Assembly: GCF_001681715.1 (NCBI RefSeq)
Contig: NZ_LNWY01000006.1
Location: 124,001 to 188,000, forward strand
Source: Tritonibacter mobilis
GTDB lineage: Bacteria; Pseudomonadota; Alphaproteobacteria; Rhodobacterales; Rhodobacteraceae
Reading direction: 5' to 3'
DNA: 64,000 bases
Shown: piece by piece, positions 37,528 through 48,085 of the stretch
Position numbering within the stretch: the first letter of the stretch is position 1
How the letters are laid out: every line of letters begins with the position of its first letter
Position numbers and translations under genes: made by a program
Notes under the pieces: generated by a model
Seen by the model: the letters and a program-made list of their open reading frames with translations, nothing else
What the model was told of the DNA's origin: nothing
Databases searched by the model: none

Positions 37528-37553
37528 CCGCGCATCTTTAAGAGGCATGTTTG

Positions 37554-39602
37554 ATGAGTGTATTTTCGCAAGACGCCCGACTCGGGCGACTCACCACCGT
37601 TTTGGGGCCGGATATTCTGGTTCTGCGGCGGTTTGACGGCGACGAAGCGCTAAGCGGGCTGTTCGATTTCACGGTCGAGGCGGTTGCGACCCGTGACGAT
37701 CTCGATTTCGACTCGCTGCTGGGTACCCATGCGACTGTAACGCTTGTCGGTGCTGATGGGCCTGCGCATTTTGACGGCATCGTCACCGAGGCGCGATGGA
37801 AAGGCCCCAGCGAAAATGGCTGGCGCTACGATCTGCGTCTGCGGCCTTGGTTCTGGCTGGCAGGTCAGCGGCGCAATATGCGCATTTTCCACAATAAAAC
37901 CGTGGTTGAGATTATTGAAGAGCTGCTCTCCGACTATGCCCACCTAGGTGAGCCGCATCTGGAGGTGGCACTTATCGGGGATTACCCGGAGCTTGAATAT
38001 ACCGTGCAATACCGCGAGAGCGATCTGGCCTTTGCACGACGTCTGATGGAGCGTTTCGGTCTGTCCTTCCACTTCCGTCACCAAGAAGGCGCGCATACGC
38101 TGGTGATGACCGACGATGTGCTGAAGCATGAGACCTTCGGCACGCGTCCGTTTTATGGCATGGGCCAGAACAAGGGCACCGGCGGCGAGCATTTCTGGGA
38201 ATGGGGCCCAGAGCGGCGCCTGACCACGGGTGCAACCCGTCTTATGGATTACAACTTTAAAACGCCCACGGCCGCTATGGAATCGGATCGCATGGGCGAT
38301 GCGCAATATGCCGAGGGCCAGCTTGAAGCCTATGATTATCCGGGCGATTACCTCGACCTGGGTCGTGGCAACAAGGTCGCGCAATTGCGGTGCGAAGAAG
38401 AGCGCGGCAATGACGCACGTCATGCAGCCACTGGCGATCTGATCGGTTTTCGCCCCGGTCACGTGGTGCATCTCGCCGGAGGCGACGCGGTGCCGGGGAA
38501 TGGCAGTGACCACATTTGTCTTGCTGCGCGGTATCGTTTTGTCAGCCAAAGCTATGGCTCCAACCGCGAGGCGGTCGCGGAAGAACGCCCCTTTGTCGGG
38601 GATTATAAACTGATGCCGACCACTGCGCCGATGGTGCCACCGCGCACCACGCCGCGCCCGGTTGTGCAAGGCCCACAGACCGCTGTTGTGGTTGGTGAAG
38701 GCGAAATTGACTGCGATGAGTACGGCCGCATTCTGGTGCATTTCCACTGGGATCTCGAAAAAGCCTACTCTATGCGCTGTCGGGTGTCGCAGAACTGGGC
38801 AAGCCAAGGCTGGGGCGGCATGGTGATCCCTCGCATCGGTATGGAAGTTGTGGTCGAATTCCTTGAGGGCGACCCGGATAAACCGCTGGTGTCGGGCTGT
38901 GTTTACAACGGCAAGAACAAACCGCCCTATCCGCTGCCCGCAAACAAGACCAAATCCGTCTTCAAAACCGACACCCACAAGGGCAGCGGCTTTAACGAGC
39001 TGACCTTTGAGGATGAGCGCGACGAAGAGCTGATCTATATGCACGGTCAGAAGGATCAGGAGATCGTCATTGAGAATGACCGCTCCAAGACCATCGGGCG
39101 GGACGAGACCAACTCCATCGGGCGCGACCGCTCGCAAGCTGTAGGTCAGGATGAAACCATGTCGGTGGGGCGCGACCAGCGCGAGAACATCGGACAGGAC
39201 GTGATCTATCAGGTAGGGCGTGACCAGCAGGAAAAATACGGCAAGGATCACGTGCATGTGGTTGGAAACATCCACAAACAGGACATCTATGCCGATCATC
39301 TGGTGCAAATCGGGCGCAATCACGAGGAAACCGTGTTTGGGAAATCGACCCTGAATGTCACAGAGGCGATCACCAACAACACCGCGAAGCACACTCTGAT
39401 GGCCTACGAGAAATTCGTCATCAAGGGCCCGGGCGGTAAGATCACTTTGGATGCATCCGGCATCACGCTTGAGGCGGGCAGCATCAACCTGAAAGGTGCG
39501 GTGAGCATGGGCGGCAGCGGCAGCGCACAGGTGCCCACCTTGCAAAACGCAGCACGCGACGCTCTGCCGTTGGTCGAAGAATGCGTCACTCAGAAAGACT
39601 GA
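37554..39602 (+). CDS. vgrG: Type VI secretion system spike protein VgrG (TssI)
   Basis: Trimeric spike protein of T6SS-type contractile machines. The 682-residue protein has a gp27-like N-terminus (FDGDEALSGLFDFTVEAVATRDD; VQYRESDLAFARRLMERFGLSFHF) and a gp5 OB-fold (GEIDCDEYGRILVHFHWD; SQNWASQGWGGMVIPRIGMEVVVEFLEGDPDKPLVSGCVYN). A beta-helix of short VGRDQ/IGRDE-type repeats follows (about residues 510-610), then a DUF2345-like end (KFVIKGPGGKITLDASGITLEAG). There is no extra C-terminal effector domain. ATG 37554 is preferred to the adjacent TTG. PAAR follows 23 bases later; no other T6SS gene is in the window. Confidence 0.95.
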   Translation: MSVFSQDARLGRLTTVLGPDILVLRRFDGDEALSGLFDFTVEAVATRDDLDFDSLLGTHATVTLVGADGPAHFDGIVTEARWKGPSENGWRYDLRLRPWFWLAGQRRNMRIFHNKTVVEIIEELLSDYAHLGEPHLEVALIGDYPELEYTVQYRESDLAFARRLMERFGLSFHFRHQEGAHTLVMTDDVLKHETFGTRPFYGMGQNKGTGGEHFWEWGPERRLTTGATRLMDYNFKTPTAAMESDRMGDAQYAEGQLEAYDYPGDYLDLGRGNKVAQLRCEEERGNDARHAATGDLIGFRPGHVVHLAGGDAVPGNGSDHICLAARYRFVSQSYGSNREAVAEERPFVGDYKLMPTTAPMVPPRTTPRPVVQGPQTAVVVGEGEIDCDEYGRILVHFHWDLEKAYSMRCRVSQNWASQGWGGMVIPRIGMEVVVEFLEGDPDKPLVSGCVYNGKNKPPYPLPANKTKSVFKTDTHKGSGFNELTFEDERDEELIYMHGQKDQEIVIENDRSKTIGRDETNSIGRDRSQAVGQDETMSVGRDQRENIGQDVIYQVGRDQQEKYGKDHVHVVGNIHKQDIYADHLVQIGRNHEETVFGKSTLNVTEAITNNTAKHTLMAYEKFVIKGPGGKITLDASGITLEAGSINLKGAVSMGGSGSAQVPTLQNAARDALPLVEECVTQKD

Positions 39603-39625
39603 GCCCAATCAGGGGAGGGTGAATT

Positions 39626-39883
39626 ATGCTACCAGTTGCACGCGTTGGAGACGAACATGCCTGCCCAAAGTGCAGGAAATGTCAGATCATCAGCGGAGGC
39701 TCGGCCACCATCGATGGTCGCCCAGTCGCACGGATTGGCGATAAAACCACCTGCGGTGCGGTGATCACCTCGGGGTCTTCCCTGTCTACGGATGACGGCA
39801 AGCCTGTGGCCTATCTCGGGTGTCAGACATCGGTGGGTGGTGTCATTGTCAGCGGCTCGCCAAACCATAAGGTTGCGCCGTAA
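39626..39883 (+). CDS. PAAR-domain spike tip protein
   Basis: The 85-residue protein is a single PAAR domain, the sharp tip that sits on VgrG. It has MLPVARVGDEHACP at the start, repeated glycine-containing beta elements (GGSATIDGRPVARIGDKTTCG) and the ending GVIVSGSPNHKVAP. Cys and His residues are available for zinc binding. It lacks any N- or C-terminal effector extension. AGGGGAGGG precedes the ATG. It is co-transcribed with vgrG and followed by a bidirectional terminator. Confidence 0.93.
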   Translation: MLPVARVGDEHACPKCRKCQIISGGSATIDGRPVARIGDKTTCGAVITSGSSLSTDDGKPVAYLGCQTSVGGVIVSGSPNHKVAP

Positions 39884-40009: not shown

Positions 40010-41086
<1,077 letters not shown>

Positions 41087-43219
41087 TTACAGCGAACAGG
41101 ACACGCAGCCCTCGACCTCGGTGCCTTCCAGCGCCTGTTGGCGCAGGCGGATGTAGTAAATCGTCTTGATCCCTTTCTTCCACGCATAGATTTGCGCGCG
41201 GTTGATGTCTCGGGTCGAGGCCTCCGCCGGGAAGAACAGGGTCAGCGACAGTCCCTGATCGACGTGCTGCGTTGCCGCCGCATAAGTGTCGATGATCGCC
41301 TCGGGACCGATGTCATAGGCATCGCGGTAATACTCGAGGTTGTCGTTGGTCATATAGGGCGCGGGATAGTAGACGCGACCAATCTTGCCTTCCTTGCGGA
41401 TCTCGATCTTGGCGGTGATCGGGTGGATCGAAGAGGTGGCATAGTTGATATAGCTGATCGAACCAGTGGGCGGCACCGCCTGCAGATTGCGGTTATAAAG
41501 CCCTTGCTTCATCACCTTGTCGCGCAGCGCTTCCCAGTCCTTGCGGGTCGGGATCTCGATGCCTGCGGCTTCAAACAGCTCTTTGACCCGGTCGGTTTCC
41601 GGCAGCCAGTCCTGATCGACATATTTCTCAAAGAAGCTGCCATCGGCATAGGCGGAGTCTTCAAAGCCTTTGAACTTTGCCTTCTTCTCTTTTGCCAATG
41701 CGTTAGAGGCGCTGAGCGCATGATAAAGCACGGTGCAGAAGTAGATATTGGTGAAATCCACCCCTTCTGCGCTGCCGTAATGGATGCGCTCGCGGGCGAG
41801 GTATCCATGCAGGTTCATCTGACCGAGACCAATAGCGTGGCCTTCCTCGTTGCCCTTGCGGATGGAAGGCACAGAATCGATGCTCGACATTTCCGACACA
41901 GCATTGAGCGCGCGGATTGCGGTGCCCACGGTGCCGGCCAGATCGCCACCATCCATCGCACGTGCGATGTTCATGGAACCGAGGTTACAGGAAATATCCG
42001 TGCCCATCTGCGCATAAGACAGGTCGTCGTTGAACTCGGAGGCCTCGTTCACCTGCAGGATTTCGGAGCAGAGGTTTGACATGGCAATGCGGCCCGCGAT
42101 GGGGTTTGCCGCATTCACCGTGTCCTCGAACATGATGTAGGGATAGCCGGATTCAAATTGAATTTCGGCGATGGTCTGGAAGAACGCGCGCGCATTGATC
42201 TTCTTTTTGCGGATCTGTGGGTTGTCGACCATCTCGTGATATTTCTCGGTGACCGAGATTTCCGAGAAGGCCTGCCCGTAGACTTTTTCCACGTCATGCG
42301 GCGAGAACAGATACATGTCCTCGTTTTTCTTGGCGAGCTGGAAGGTGATGTCGGGGATCACCACGCCCAGAGACAGCGTCTTGATGCGGATCTTCTCATC
42401 CGCGTTTTCGCGCTTGGTATCCAAGAAACGCAGAATATCCGGGTGATGCGCGTTCAGATAGACCGCGCCTGCGCCCTGACGCGCGCCCAGCTGGTTGGCA
42501 TAAGAAAAACTGTCCTCAAGAAGCTTCATCACCGGGATGACGCCCGAAGACTGGTTCTCGATGCCCTTGATCGGGGCGCCGTGTTCACGAATGTTGGTCA
42601 GCATCAAGGCCACGCCACCGCCGCGCTTCGAGAGTTGCAGCGCCGAGTTGATGCCGCGCCCGATCGACTCCATGTTGTCCTCAAGACGCAACAGGAAGCA
42701 GGACACAAACTCGCCGCGCGCCTTCTTGCCCGCATTGAGGAAGGTGGGCGTTGCGGGTTGGAAGCGGCCGTCGATGATCTCCGACATCAGCTTCATCGCG
42801 AGTTTTTCATCCCCGCGTGCCAGCGTCAGCGCATTCATCACCACGCGGTCCTCGTAGCGCTCCAAATAGCGCTGCCCATCGCGGGTTTTCAGCGTGTAGG
42901 ACGTGTAATATTTGAACGCACCGAGGAAGGACGGGAAGCGGAATTTCTTGCCATAGGCCGCATCCCAGATCTTGCGCTGGAAGTTGCGGGAATACTGATC
43001 CAGCACTTCAGGCTCGTAATAGCCTTTCTCAACGAGGTAGCCGAGTTTTTCGTCCAGCGAGTGAAAGAACACGGTGTTCTGATTCACATGCTGTAGGAAA
43101 TACTGCCGGGCCGCCATGCGGTCGGCGTCGAACTGGATGTTGCCCTCGTCATCATAGAGGTTCAACATCGCGTTCAGCGCGTGATAGTCGAGATCGGCGG
43201 TTACGCTTGCGTCAAGCAT
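41087..43219 (-). CDS. nrdE: Class Ib ribonucleotide reductase alpha subunit
   Basis: Catalytic subunit that reduces ribonucleoside diphosphates. The 710-residue length fits NrdE, which lacks the N-terminal ATP-cone. It has [19 protein letters not shown] (first redox cysteine), [15 protein letters not shown] (active-site C and E), [18 protein letters not shown], and the C-terminal redox tail EGCVSCSL that is reduced by NrdH. It overlaps nrdI by 19 bases. The absence of an ATP-cone implies overall activity is not allosterically switched by dATP binding to a cone. Confidence 0.97.
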
Positions 43220-43623
43220 GTCTGCTGCTCCTGTGCCGCCCAGAACCGGGCGAGGCCCGCGCGGATGCGGGCGATGTCTGTTTCGGTTCCCGCCAACTCA
43301 AAGCGGTAGAGGACGGGGACATCGCATTTTTTGGCGATCACATCCCCCGCGAGGGCGAAAGTGGTGCCAAAGTTGCGGTTGCCCCCGGCAATCACGCCCT
43401 GCAGAAGGGCACGATTGCGCGTGTTGTTCAGAAACTTGATGACCGATTTTGGCACCGCACCACGCCCTTCGCCATCGGCAAAGGTTGGCGTCACCAATAC
43501 ATAGGGCGCATCTACTTCCGGGGAAGGCTCTGTCTGCGGCAGCCGCAGAGCCTTAAGCCCCAGTCGCTCCATCAAACGGGCCGTATTGCCCGAACGGGAG
43601 GAGTAATAGACAAGCCCGGTCAC
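43201..43623 (-). CDS. nrdI: NrdI flavodoxin-like protein
   Basis: Flavoprotein that supplies oxidant for assembly of the Mn2-tyrosyl cofactor in NrdF. The 140-residue protein has the FMN phosphate loop [12 protein letters not shown] at the start, [21 protein letters not shown] and the glycine-rich [22 protein letters not shown]. Its C-terminus overlaps the nrdE start by 19 bases, which indicates coupled translation. nrdH ends 9 bases upstream. Confidence 0.95.
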
Positions 43624-43632
43624 CGTTGTCTC

Positions 43633-43854
43633 TTATGCCAACTGGCCGATCAGATCGGGACGAAAGCCTGCCCAGTGATCTTCGCCTGCGACAACCACGG
43701 GTGCCTGACGGTAGCCAAGACCCTGCACCATTTCCATGGCAGCGGCATCTTCCGTCAGATCAACGAGATCAAAAGAGATCCCCTTCGCCTCAAGGGCGCG
43801 GGTGGTGGCGGTGCACTGCACACAGGCAGGTTTTGAATAGACAGTGATGCTCAT
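43633..43854 (-). CDS. nrdH: NrdH glutaredoxin-like protein
   Basis: Thioredoxin-fold electron donor for NrdE. The 73-residue protein has MSITVYSKPACVQCTATTRAL with the redox motif CVQC, and GYRQAPVVVAGEDHWAGFRPDLI with the cis-proline. ATG 43854 is chosen because it begins the fold; a frame extending to 43926 would run into the leader. It is the first gene of nrdHIEF, 116 bases downstream of the riboswitch aptamer. Confidence 0.95.
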   Translation of the reverse strand: MSITVYSKPACVQCTATTRALEAKGISFDLVDLTEDAAAMEMVQGLGYRQAPVVVAGEDHWAGFRPDLIGQLA

Positions 43855-43969
43855 CTGCAAGATCCCCTCAGGTGTTGTCCTACCGGGCGGAGAAGTCACG
43901 TAATCCGGCACTGTTACCAGTACCAAATGACGCGTCCGGGCCCACCGCCGCGGTCGTCGTTTGTCGTGC

Positions 43970-44135
43970 TCTGGCAGGTCTCCTGGCTTTGCGGCTCAAA
44001 CGCCCCATCCCGCCTTCCCAATGCGCGATCGCATCAGTGGCACGGGCGGGACTTACCGCTTACAGTTGCGGGGGCAGCACCGGATTTACACCAGTTTCCC
44101 TCTTCGCTTGCGAGTCGCCTCGAAAGAACCAAAGC
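43970..44135 (-). ncRNA. Cobalamin (B12) riboswitch
   Basis: Read on the minus strand, the sequence contains the conserved aptamer blocks in order: GGGAAACTGGTGTAAATCCGG, GCTGCCCCCGCAACTGTAA (the B12-box core, 44060-44078), GCCACTG, TTGGGAAGGCGGG and AAGCCAGGAGACCTGCC (near 43973-43989). This is the standard B12-element order. It ends about 116 bases before nrdH. Such elements usually repress their operon when adenosylcobalamin is abundant. Here that would switch off a B12-independent reductase when a B12-dependent one (class II, not in the window) can work. Confidence 0.93.
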
Positions 44136-44150
44136 AACACGATATTGATG
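44135..44150. promoter_or_regulatory. NrdR-box-like site 2 (weaker)
   Basis: CAACACGATATTGATG matches the NrdR consensus ACACwATATATwGTGT at 9 of 16 positions. Its centre is 30 bp from site 1, about three helical turns, as in known tandem NrdR operators. It overlaps the predicted -10 region and the 5' end of the aptamer. Confidence 0.5.
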
Positions 44151-44170
44151 CAGAAGCACGAAATGGTCAA
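44142..44170 (-). promoter_or_regulatory. Predicted promoter of nrdHIEF
   Basis: On the minus strand TTGACC (44170-44165), a 17-bp spacer and CAATAT (44147-44142) form a sigma-70-like promoter. It would start transcription near 44135, exactly where the riboswitch begins. Both elements fall inside the NrdR-like boxes. Confidence 0.5.
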
Positions 44171-44180
44171 TATATGGTGT
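44165..44180. promoter_or_regulatory. NrdR-box-like site 1
   Basis: GGTCAATATATGGTGT matches the NrdR consensus ACACwATATATwGTGT at 12 of 16 positions, including the ATATAT core and one full GTGT arm. NrdR is the conserved repressor of ribonucleotide reductase operons. Confidence 0.7.
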
Positions 44181-44199
44181 AGGGTTAGCGGGTCTTTTG

Positions 44200-44208
44200 T
44201 TGTCCACA
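44200..44208 (+). promoter_or_regulatory. DnaA-box-like site (TTGTCCACA)
   Basis: One mismatch to the DnaA consensus TTATCCACA, about 35 bp upstream of the predicted nrd -35 element. Confidence 0.4.
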
Positions 44209-44287
44209 GGCCACCTAAATGTCGCGCCCCTGCATTGTGTCTGCATTGTAAGGACATCCGTCCTGATCCTGCGCCTTACCCCCATGC

Positions 44288-44296
44288 TTATCCACA
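44288..44296 (+). promoter_or_regulatory. Perfect DnaA box (TTATCCACA)
   Basis: A 9/9 match to the DnaA consensus, followed directly by GATTC (a GANTC site, the target of the cell-cycle methyltransferase CcrM). DnaA regulates ribonucleotide reductase genes in other bacteria. The box lies about 120 bp upstream of the predicted nrd promoter. Confidence 0.5.
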
Positions 44297-44385
44297 GATT
44301 CGATCCGGTGAGGTTCGGTGCGGGCGCATCCGGTCCCTGAAACGAGGGGAATCGCCCGGCTCATTTCCTGCGACAAAAGGTAGGG

Positions 44386-44757
44386 CTAGGATCTGTCGCG
44401 GCAATATTGAGCCGTACCCGCGAGCGGCATCAGCCAGCTTTCCCGGCGATCTGTCCAAAGCTCATAGGTCGGGGTGAATTGGTCGGGTTTGTCTAACGTG
44501 CCAAGGTGAACTTCCACCTCGCCATCGCTGCATGAAAAAACGGAAGAGCCGCATCTGGGGCAGAAATGACGCCCCTGATACTGCTGTGTGCCGCCCGTCA
44601 CAGTCACCGCGTTTTCCGGGTATATGGCGGCGGCCCAAAAGACCGCGCCGTGGTGTTTGCGACAGTCGAGGCAGTGACAGAGGCCGACGCTTTCCGGTTC
44701 CCCCGATGCCACCAGGCGAATGTCGCCGCACAGGCAGCTTGCGGTTACATCTGGCAT
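44386..44757 (-). CDS. GFA (CENP-V/GFA domain) family protein
   Basis: The 123-residue protein is a zinc-binding GFA domain with the cysteine pairs CLCG, CHCLDCRKHHGAVF and CPRCGSSVF, and the family ending of the WTDRRESWL type. The family is named after a glutathione-dependent formaldehyde-activating enzyme, but most members have no proven activity. It starts 28 bases after the acr3 stop on the same strand with a strong GGGAGG site, so it is probably the last gene of the arsenic operon. A role in arsenic tolerance is only suggested by position. Confidence 0.87.
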   Translation of the reverse strand: MPDVTASCLCGDIRLVASGEPESVGLCHCLDCRKHHGAVFWAAAIYPENAVTVTGGTQQYQGRHFCPRCGSSVFSCSDGEVEVHLGTLDKPDQFTPTYELWTDRRESWLMPLAGTAQYCRDRS

Positions 44758-44784: not shown

Positions 44785-45819
44785 TCAGCTTGCCTGACCT
44801 TTGGCGTCGGTCAAGGAGAACTTGGCGCGGGTGCGGTTGGCAAAGGCCACCAAGGTCAGCATCACCGGCACCTCGACCAGCACGCCAACGACAGTTGCCA
44901 ATGCTGCGCCGGAATTGAGGCCAAAGAGGCTGATTGCAACCGCGACCGCCAGTTCAAAGAAGTTCGACGTTCCGATCAGCGCGCAGGGGGCGGCGATCCG
45001 ATGTGGCACCCGCATCGCATAGGCGGCGCCATAGGCGATGAAGAAAATGCCATAGCTCTGGATCAGGATCGGCGCGGCGATCATGGCGATCACGGTGGGG
45101 CGGTCGAGAATGACCTGACCTTGCAGGCCAAACAGGATCACCACGGTTGCGATCAGGCCGATGACCGACAGCGGCTTGATCCGTGCCAGGAAGGCGGCGA
45201 TACGCGCCTCATCCCCCAGGTGGCTCCGGGTCCAGAGACCGGCCACAAGGGGCAGCAGCACAAACAACACCGCCGAGAGGATCAGCGTGCTCCACGGCAC
45301 CTCGATATCGGTGACCCCGAGCAGGAAGGCCACGATGGGGGCAAAGGCCACCACCATGATCAGATCGTTCACCGAGACTTGCAGCAGCGTATAGCTCTCG
45401 TCGCCCTTGGTCAGTTGCGACCAGACAAACACCATGGCCGTGCAGGGCGCGGCCCCGAGCAGGATCAGCCCGGCGATATATTGCTGGGCGTCAGCGGGGT
45501 TCAGGAAGGGGGCAAAGACCACCTCGAAAAACAAAACGCCAAGGGCGGCCATGCTGAAGGGTTTGATGAGCCAGTTGACCACCAGCGTGATCGCAAGCCC
45601 CTTGGGCTGGCGTGCCACATCCCGCAGGCTCTTGGGGTTCACGCCGATCATCATCGGGTAGACCATCGCCCAGATCAGCACCGCCACCACCAGATTGACA
45701 TTGGCGACTTCGGCGGCGGCAATGGTGCCCACGAGAGCAGGGGAGAGATTGCCAAGCGCAATGCCCGCAACCATGGCCAGCGCCACCCAGATGCTCAGGT
45801 ATTTTTCAAAGATGCTCAT
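44785..45819 (-). CDS. acr3: ACR3-family arsenite efflux permease
   Basis: Ten-helix arsenite/H+ antiporter of the BASS superfamily. The 344-residue protein has [34 protein letters not shown] and the hallmark [15 protein letters not shown] with its essential cysteine. It also has [17 protein letters not shown] and [25 protein letters not shown]. Its ATG overlaps the arsJ stop by 4 bases, so arsJ and acr3 are co-translated. Confidence 0.96.
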
Positions 45820-47090
45820 GCCGGGGTGCTTTCTGGTGTTGGGGCGGTCAGGCGACCGGCGATCAGCGCGCTGAGGGCGATCATCACGGTGGCCGTGCCG
45901 AGGCAGGCTGCAACGCCGCCCAGTTGATAGGTGAGGCCCGACAGGACGGTGCCCAATAGCCGCCCGCCTGCATTGGCCATGTAATAAAACCCCACATCCA
46001 TCGTGACCCGTTCGTCCTTGGAAAAGGCGAGGATCAGATAGGAGTGGAGCGAGGAATTCACCGCAAAAAGCGCCCCAAACAGCGGGAGGCCAGCCACCAG
46101 CGTCACGGTGAGCCAGAGCGCAGGTTGGTCTGACATCAGCACTGCCGCCGTGAGGACGGCGGGCACCACCGCGAGCATGCCGGCCCAGCGGCGAGCGGCG
46201 GCGATCAGGTCAGCCTCACTGCGCGATGGCGCGCGCAGGATGCGGGGCGCGGCGGCCTGCACGGCGCCATAGCAGATAACCCAGATCGCCATGAACGTAC
46301 CGATCATGAAGAACGCCGCGCGGTTGCCCTCTTCGGTGCCGTCCGACAGCACCGCGTAGAAATAGACCGGAATGCCGACCACGAACCAGACGTCGCGCGC
46401 GCCAAACAGGAACACCCGCGCTGCCGACAGCCAGTTGATATTGGCGGATTTGGAGAACACTTCGGAGAACTTTGCGCCCTTGCGTCCGGTGGGCAGGCCT
46501 GCGGGCATCGCAATCAGCACCGCGATCAGGATCAGGCCGAGGATGATCGCCATACCCAGCGTTGCCCATGTGAACCCCGCCAGCGCGAGCAAGGCTGCGC
46601 CCAGCAGGAAACCCAACCCCTTGACCGCGTTCTTCGATCCGGTCAGCACCGCCACCCAGCGAAACAGCCCGTCGCCCTCGCGCGGGGCGAGCAGTTTGAC
46701 GGCAGATTTCGACGCCATCTTGGCCAGATCCTTGGCCACGCCCGACAGCCCCTGCACCGCCATCACAAAACCGACCGAGGTGGCGATCTGCCAGGTGGGA
46801 TCAAGCTGCGTCAGTGCCACCAGTGCCACCACTTGCAGGCCGAGCCCGGCATAGAGCGTCGTCGTCAGGCCAAACCGCGCCGCGATCCAACCTGCCGAGA
46901 GGTTGGTGACCATGCCCGCGATCTCGTACAAGACAAAGAGATAGGCCAGCTGCACCGGGCTGAACCCCAACGTATGAAAGTGCAAAAGCACCAGCATCCG
47001 GAGCGCGCCATCGGTCAGCATGAAGGCCCAATAGGCCGCCGTCACCGCCACATAGGCGGCAAGGCCGTTCTGCGCGGGCGTGGAGGTCAC
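45816..47090 (-). CDS. arsJ: Organoarsenical efflux MFS transporter ArsJ
   Basis: Exports 1-arseno-3-phosphoglycerate, the unstable product formed by the neighbouring GAPDH from arsenate. The 424-residue protein has 12 predicted membrane segments and ArsJ features such as [46 protein letters not shown] and [20 protein letters not shown]. The GTG start at 47090 overlaps the gapdh stop (GTGA), and the stop overlaps acr3. A longer frame from 47159 lies inside gapdh and is rejected. Confidence 0.94.
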
Positions 47091-48085
47091 AGTTTCGCAC
47101 CCACCATCAGGGCCACATCCACCAGACGATGCGCATAACCCATCTCGTTGTCGTACCAAGCGTAGATCTTCACCTGGGTGCCATTCACAACCATGGTCGA
47201 GGGCGCATCCACAATGGAGGACCGCGTGTCATTGGTGTAGTCCGCCGACACCAGCGGGCGTTCCTCATAGCCGAGGATACCAGAAAGCGCGCCGGTCGCC
47301 GCCTCCCGGAACATGGCGTTCACCTCCTCGGCGGTGGTCTTGCGGGCAACCTCAAATACGCAATCGGTGATCGAGGCATTCAGCAGCGGCACCCGCACCG
47401 CATGGCCGTTCAGTTTGCCCTTGAGCTCCGGGTAGATCAGCGTGATCGCGGTGGCGCTGCCAGTGGTGGTCGGGATCAGGGAGTTGAGCGCAGAACGTGC
47501 CCGCCGTAGATCCTTGGCCGGGCGATCAACAATGGTCTGGGTGTTGGTCACATCATGGATCGTGGTGATCGAGCCATGTTTGATGCCGATCCCCTCGTGC
47601 AGCACCTTCACCACCGGCGCGAGGCAATTGGTGGTGCAGCTCGCGGCGGTCACAATGCGGTGGAGGGCGGGATCATAGATGTCGTCATTGACACCCATGA
47701 CGATATTGGCGGCATCGCCATCCTTGACCGGGGCGGAGACCACGACCTTTTTGACGCCCGCCTCGAGATACGGGGCAAGCTTGGCCTCGGTTTTGAAAAC
47801 CCCGGTACAGTCAATCACCACATCGACGCCGTCGAGCGGCAGATCCGCGATGCGGGTCTGGTTCAGGACGGGCAGGCGGGTGCCATCGATGGTGATGCTG
47901 TCGTCATCGCTTGTGATCTCCGCGTCCCAGCGGCCATGCACCGTGTCGAACTCCAGAAGATGGGCGTGCATCGCCGCATCGCCCACCGCATCGTTGATCC
48001 AGGCGATCTGAGCGCCGCGTTCCAGCAGCGGTTTCAGGGCCAGTTTGCCCATCCGGCCAAGGCCGTTCAATGCATAGACGGTCAT
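47087..48085 (-). CDS. ArsJ-associated glyceraldehyde-3-phosphate dehydrogenase
   Basis: GAPDH paralogue of the arsenic operon: with arsenate in place of phosphate it forms 1-arseno-3-phosphoglycerate for export by ArsJ. The 332-residue protein has an NAD domain ([15 protein letters not shown]) and the catalytic cysteine C150 in [11 protein letters not shown]. The C-terminal [16 protein letters not shown] segment is also typical. It begins 42 bases after the arsRC stop and is coupled to arsJ by GTGA. Its position marks it as the resistance paralogue rather than the glycolytic enzyme. Confidence 0.94.

Follow-up and report, generated by a model that had tools for sequence, protein, structure and literature searches.

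A cobalamin riboswitch upstream of the class Ib ribonucleotide reductase operon of Tritonibacter mobilis and its likely role in repressing a backup to class II NrdJ

The nrdHIEF operon of Tritonibacter mobilis, which encodes a class Ib ribonucleotide reductase, is preceded by a cobalamin riboswitch. On the basis of the sequence comparisons reported here, it is very probable that the B12-bound leader of this operon keeps class Ib off while the B12-dependent class II enzyme NrdJ makes dNTPs, and that class Ib is turned on as a backup when B12 falls. If class Ib is off under adenosylcobalamin, dNTPs would therefore be made by class II NrdJ.

The window analyzed in this study is a stretch of 64,000 nucleotides from the T. 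mobilis genome. When the whole 64 kb was compared with all 4227 Rfam families by cmscan, RF00174 (Cobalamin) was the sole match above the gathering score. The hit covers the full model (1-189) and extends over 43956-44148 of the minus strand, with 126.3 bits (cut-off 31.5) and E 2.4e-31; the aptamer ends 101 nt ahead of the nrdH start codon (ATG, with its first base at 43854). A first-pass annotation of this DNA had placed a cobalamin riboswitch on the minus strand before nrdHIEF and suggested an Infernal search with the Rfam model as a check; the covariance score was four times the cut-off and a complete operon lies downstream, which confirms the riboswitch at the level of sequence. The span originally noted, 43970-44135, falls inside the aptamer, but the latter extends 13-14 nt further at each end. 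Both the L5-containing conserved core block GCTGCCCCCGCAACTGTAA (44060-44078, minus strand, as aligned to the model) and the B12 box AGCCAGGAGACCTGCC (43973-43988, minus strand) were free of mismatches. Over the six core blocks used as a yardstick, the window's switch had one mismatch in total, compared with a median of four among 64 nrdH-linked switches (the window's included). Seven cobalamin riboswitches could be identified in the genome, and the nrdH one ranked second by score. Separately, a cobalamin riboswitch was observed before a Rieske oxygenase related to glycine betaine monooxygenase GbcA in L005 (G000:C11:19913-20119) and L016 (1947-3402); it was an Rfam match in the window's genome and a match by pattern only in L016, where it is divergent from the nrd switch. 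The two oxygenases are 73% identical, and the L016 protein scored 498 bits, below the GbcA cut-off of 670. A B12-controlled betaine-type oxygenase, if true, would be a less familiar riboswitch target.

The class Ib operon is complete, with four genes on the minus strand that all score above curated cut-offs: nrdH, a glutaredoxin-like redoxin (43633-43854; TIGR02194, 98.4 bits, cut-off 85.75), nrdI, the class Ib assembly flavoprotein (43201-43623; TIGR00333, 143.9 bits, cut-off 74.65), nrdE, the catalytic subunit (41087-43219; TIGR04170, 1214.6 bits, cut-off 750) and nrdF, the radical subunit (40010-40987; TIGR04171, 478.3 bits, cut-off 355). As a class, class Ib reductases use Mn, with a Mn-tyrosyl radical cofactor assembled with NrdI. 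The nearest NrdE was that of Tritonibacter scottomollicae (93%), and the earlier description of the host as a marine roseobacter is plausible. Just 5' of the nrd locus, on the same strand (44785-48085), are genes for ACR3 arsenite efflux and for ArsJ with its glyceraldehyde-3-phosphate dehydrogenase partner; 3' of nrdF, on the opposite strand (37551-39883), are frames that by eye resemble a type VI secretion VgrG spike and a PAAR protein.

Several elements could be recognized on the minus strand between the aptamer and nrdH. A probable P13 hairpin (43936-43953) carries the L13 loop CGGTGGG (43941-43947), which is conserved in related leaders, and is followed by a stem-loop (43897-43934) that forms in computed folds of the window's leader. 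Next comes an anti-Shine-Dalgarno (anti-SD) stretch CTTCTCCGCCCGGT (43882-43895, with UCUCC at 43889-43893), which in alternative folds pairs either with the Shine-Dalgarno (SD) sequence or with P13/L13. The SD sequence of nrdH itself, GAGGGGA (43863-43869), was picked by pairing with the 16S rRNA 3' end. A loop CGGNGGG directly after the B12 box was found in all 23 Rhodobacterales-type leaders analyzed, a set from which L044, L015, L020 and L029 were left out, and by analogy L13 is predicted to be the kissing partner of the C-run in L5 (passages of PMC9600662). B12 binding would let the L5-L13 kissing loop fix the P13 hairpin; the downstream UCUCC would then be free to pair with GGGGA of the nrdH SD, and translation would be blocked. 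Without B12, P13/L13 would pair with the anti-SD stretch and the ribosome site would be more open.

To assess SD accessibility, the 23 leaders were folded with and without P13/L13 fixed, using shuffled spacers as controls. Mean accessibility with P13 formed was 0.26, compared with 0.40 for shuffled spacers (Wilcoxon p 0.0005), and P13 formation lowered it in 18 of the 23 leaders (p 0.002; relative to shuffles p 0.048). For the window's own leader, the computed value went from 0.40 in the free form to 0.26 with P13 formed. In the unconstrained minimum-energy fold of this leader, P13/L13 pairs with CUUCUCCGCCCGGU and thus takes the anti-SD away from the SD; the SD is not free there but base-paired with the first codons, and in the centroid it is partly open. 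When P13 was excluded from the folded stretch, UCUCC paired with GGGGA. The SD/anti-SD helix in the window is short (5-6 pairs), and the folding of the leader was only slightly better than that of shuffles (z -1.74, 14/200 as good). The gain of matched over mismatched SD pairing was modest (272/5000 permutations as good by duplex energies, 132/5000 in a second test). Spacer-versus-SD duplex energies were rejected, given these 272 permutations and the dominance of large interior loops. A general anti-anti-SD role for the 3' strand of P13 was rejected too, as matched pairs were no better than mismatched ones (1877/5000). In these models, the statistics support SD sequestration; support for a coupling of sequestration to B12 is weak, although we regard such a coupling as likely, and control at this operon looks translational. 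The same ligand and logic would also be compatible with a stop of transcription instead of translation, by Rho or at an unrecognised terminator, a reading to which we assign a rather low probability. It is favored by the leader of about 100 nt that separates aptamer and nrdH and by Propionibacterium acnes, in which a large part of nrdAB transcription seems to stop short of the first gene (passages of PMC3848588), but no intrinsic-terminator-like site was found in 43780-44400 (shuffles mean 0.6), and SD sequestration exceeds that of shuffles.

Further control may act on transcription in addition to the proposed B12-dependent control of translation. A probable -35 element TTGACC (44165-44170, minus strand) is paired with a probable -10 element CAATAT (44142-44147) over a 17 nt spacer; a simple sigma-70 scan found no site at this probable promoter. 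All 24 Rhodobacterales-type leaders have TTGAC upstream of the core of the aptamer; the distance is 89-106 nt in 23 leaders, and L044, with 139 nt, is the exception. Overlapping the -35 is a moderate NrdR-box-like candidate, ACACCATATATTGA (44167-44180, minus strand), with AT[AG]TTGAC in 21 of the 24 leaders; a second, weak candidate, ATCAATATCGTGTT (44136-44149, minus strand), overlaps the -10 and was assigned by eye and position. The NrdR matrix was built from 12 distinct Rhizobiales boxes. With it, the site overlapping box 1 ranked 11 of 127970 in the window, so ten other places in the window score as well, and box 2 was absent from the best-scoring matrix sites in the window. NrdR itself is encoded in the genome (166 bits, cut-off 124.65). 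An NrdR-box-like site was also observed about 620 nt before nrdJ (L009, 4342-4357, minus strand), scoring 13.0 with the Rhizobiales matrix compared with 10.7 for the best site in the window. Further upstream of nrdH are TTGTCCACA (44200-44208) and TTATCCACA (44288-44296), which we take to be DnaA-box-like from their resemblance to the consensus. Such sites occur upstream in 12 of 61 related leaders, compared with 0.25 expected from shuffles, and in only 4 of 25 in the loci up to L044; the window as a whole contains three, which is not rare (6/100 shuffles have as many). The NrdR-like sites over the promoter and the DnaA-like sites upstream may add control by the dNTP pool and by replication at the level of transcription.

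The genome to which the window belongs is listed as 100% complete with 0.75% contamination. Two genes with a class I/II reductase domain were identified in it, nrdE and that of class II NrdJ, the latter full-length (1217 aa, 2223.7 bits in the profile search, cut-off 1737). In the whole genome, we found no other class I/II large subunit, no second R2 besides NrdF and no class III NrdD, and none of the seven cobalamin riboswitch matches is at nrdJ. Thus, the expectation of the first-pass annotation that a class II enzyme is present elsewhere in the genome was correct. The organism probably makes B12, because cobaltochelatase CobN is encoded in the genome and cobO- and cobA-like frames (by eye) lie close to two of its switches. 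With regard to other forms of class II reductase, a shorter one (frames of 761-985 aa) exceeded the TIGR02504 cut-off in 9 of 20 genomes searched (for example, L094, G001:C16). Some genomes have it beside the long NrdJ, and the window's genome is without it.

The relationship between the switch and class II was then analyzed in the 80 best NrdE relatives from a genome collection, fetched with flanks and chosen by similarity to the window's NrdE. A switch before nrdH was present in 63 of the 80 loci: 60 were detected by pattern search, and the remaining 20 were checked with Rfam, which added three of 12 (L015, L020 and L079, with 43.6, 37.1 and 76.5 bits, respectively) and none of the last eight. 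The arrangement occurs over Rhodobacterales- and Rhizobiales-type loci, and the distance from the B12 box to nrdH is approximately 95-150 nt in Rhodobacterales-type leaders and 256-416 nt in Rhizobiales. Class II was searched with the NrdJ model NF005736 over 50 + 29 genomes and the wider TIGR02504 over 20 of these; 79 of the 80 genomes were covered (L063 was left out), and a score above the cut-off of either model was taken as positive. Class II was present in 61 of 62 switch-bearing genomes versus 8 of 17 switch-less ones (Fisher p 1e-6, a statistic that ignores kinship). Nine genomes lack both the switch and class II: two Vibrio, six Actinomycetota and Pseudochrobactrum. The lone switch-bearing genome without class II is L079 (Brucella rhizosphaerae), whose switch has 11 core-block mismatches, the third worst of 64, and looks like a decaying one. 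It should be noted that this apparent decay does not prove the class II link, since the two most degraded switches, L020 and L015, are both in genomes with NrdJ. The link appears to be one-sided, because several class II genomes have no switch or a degraded one, and a strict rule of switch if and only if class II is ruled out by the class II genomes without a switch. Rfam up to E 5 gave no cobalamin match in the switch-less Paracoccus loci L030, L033, L036, L040 and L043. By eye, short aptamer-like pieces persist in some switch-less Paracoccus loci. In the Paracoccus clade of L030, L033, L036, L039 and L043, NrdJ is present and the long nrdH leader is, by eye, partly conserved between species; the cobalamin model no longer matches near nrdH there, L039 being outside the E 5 search.

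A second sample, less biased than the first, comprised 198 genomes drawn evenly from the window's own family, the window's included. NrdJ was found in 188 of them at E <= 1e-200 (182 of these above the cut-off) and NrdE in 22. Of the 22 NrdE genomes, 16 have the switch before nrdH according to Rfam; NrdJ was present in all 16 and in five of the six without a switch. The sixth, G229, is the sole NrdE genome of the family without NrdJ and has a single class I/II large subunit. Among the switch-less genomes, L112, which has NrdJ, retains by eye about half of the aptamer core, and the leaders of L114 and L126 may lie elsewhere, since no nrdH was found near their nrdE. By itself, the family sample gave no significant association (Fisher p 0.27), and it overlaps the 80-locus set, since 3 of the 21 other NrdE rows have exactly the same sequence as rows of that set. 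We read class II as the housekeeping enzyme of the family and class Ib as a rare extra. With the one near-universal and the other rare, the arrangement therefore looks like a backup held off by B12 and not an equal pair. The exchange between class Ib and class II predicted by the first-pass annotation stands insofar as NrdJ is present and the switch-class II link recurs.

In the NrdE tree (82 rows, quick method, SH-aLRT supports without bootstrap), host families are intermixed, and Paracoccus appears in several places. The NrdE of Lautropia (Burkholderiaceae) pairs with that of a Paracoccus (SH-aLRT 94), and the Stappia NrdE groups with those of Paracoccus onubensis and a genome of the window's family (SH-aLRT 91). 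The switch label requires 12 changes on this tree, at least five of which are forced by well-supported branches. A set of Paracoccus loci share neighbors with one another, and several loci resembling those of Salipiger, Stappia and Pseudoruegeria have neighbors in common with them. In Roseivivax, Ponticoccus and Pseudosulfitobacter, the leader adjoins nrdH on plasmids. A Rhodobacterales-type nrdHIEF with a riboswitch was also observed in L014, on a contig whose title names Nocardioides marinus; since its NrdE groups with the window's family, mislabelling or contamination of this record is possible. On account of the mixed NrdE tree, the neighbor patterns and the plasmid locations, we tentatively suggest, at somewhat less than even probability, that nrdHIEF moves among alphaproteobacteria, and into at least one member of Burkholderiales (Lautropia), as a unit carrying its own promoter, NrdR-like sites and B12 riboswitch. 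As the unit would carry its own switch, it would arrive already silenced in hosts with class II and B12 and wake only when B12 runs out, and loss of class II, or a lasting use for the backup, would let the switch decay.

A transferred operon could also have brought along an aptamer that no longer matters to the host. The rare and patchy occurrence of the operon in the family (22/198), the flanking genes of the window, which are matched by L011 alone out of 34 loci compared, and the loss or degradation of related switches on several occasions would all fit such a relic, but the aptamer in the window is near-perfect and the arrangement spans Rhodobacterales- and Rhizobiales-type loci, and we consider a relic very unlikely. 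It is also very unlikely that the switch serves cobalt or metal economy in place of enzyme exchange, with class Ib co-induced with a cobalt/B12 uptake regulon under B12 shortage for the use of a Mn cofactor; the other six switches of the genome include ones before transport-like and cobW-like frames (by eye), but the near-strict presence of class II in switch-bearing genomes would be left unexplained.

Class Ib as a backup under B12 control has parallels in known systems. The claim of the first-pass annotation that B12 control of a B12-independent reductase is known in some bacteria holds for Streptomyces nrdABS and for P. acnes nrdAB and nrdDG. The Streptomyces genome also has a class II reductase. 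As in the window, a coenzyme B12 riboswitch acts on a B12-independent reductase in Streptomyces, where it is reported to control transcription of nrdABS (Borovok et al. 2006, as cited in PMC5962746); the differences are that nrdABS is class Ia, belongs to an actinomycete and is controlled at transcription, whereas the window has class Ib and control that looks translational. In P. acnes, passages of PMC3848588 describe annotated cobalamin riboswitches in the nrdAB and nrdDG leaders, with nrd-boxes nearby and, as in T. mobilis, class II NrdJ elsewhere, and the same exchange was proposed there from RNA-seq. In contrast with the window, the targets in those passages are not class Ib but nrdAB and the anaerobic nrdDG, and the nrdAB leader appears to be a place where transcription stops (PMC3848588). 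In a study of 15 Rhodobacterales and 15 Rhizobiales genomes, 'isozymes of B12-dependent enzymes' form a category of cobalamin regulons (PMC3766115, main text). This is the functional class of the pair in the window's genome, in which the B12-dependent NrdJ is not itself switched. The main text of that paper contains neither 'nrd' nor 'ribonucleotide', and its supplementary tables may list nrdHIEF. Our search found no paper tying a cobalamin riboswitch to nrdHIEF or class Ib; supplements and subscription papers were outside it. Thus, the T. mobilis leader adds a well-anchored new case to a known control type, that is, a B12 riboswitch on a B12-independent reductase, here of class Ib.

Cells cannot do without dNTP synthesis, and a B12-dependent enzyme for it was found in nearly every genome sampled from the family (188/198). 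From the distribution of a B12-gated spare reductase, which about one-twelfth of the sampled genomes (16/198) would possess, one could predict the species able to survive when B12 is short. Since relatives with and without the switch exist in nature, the backup idea can be tested.
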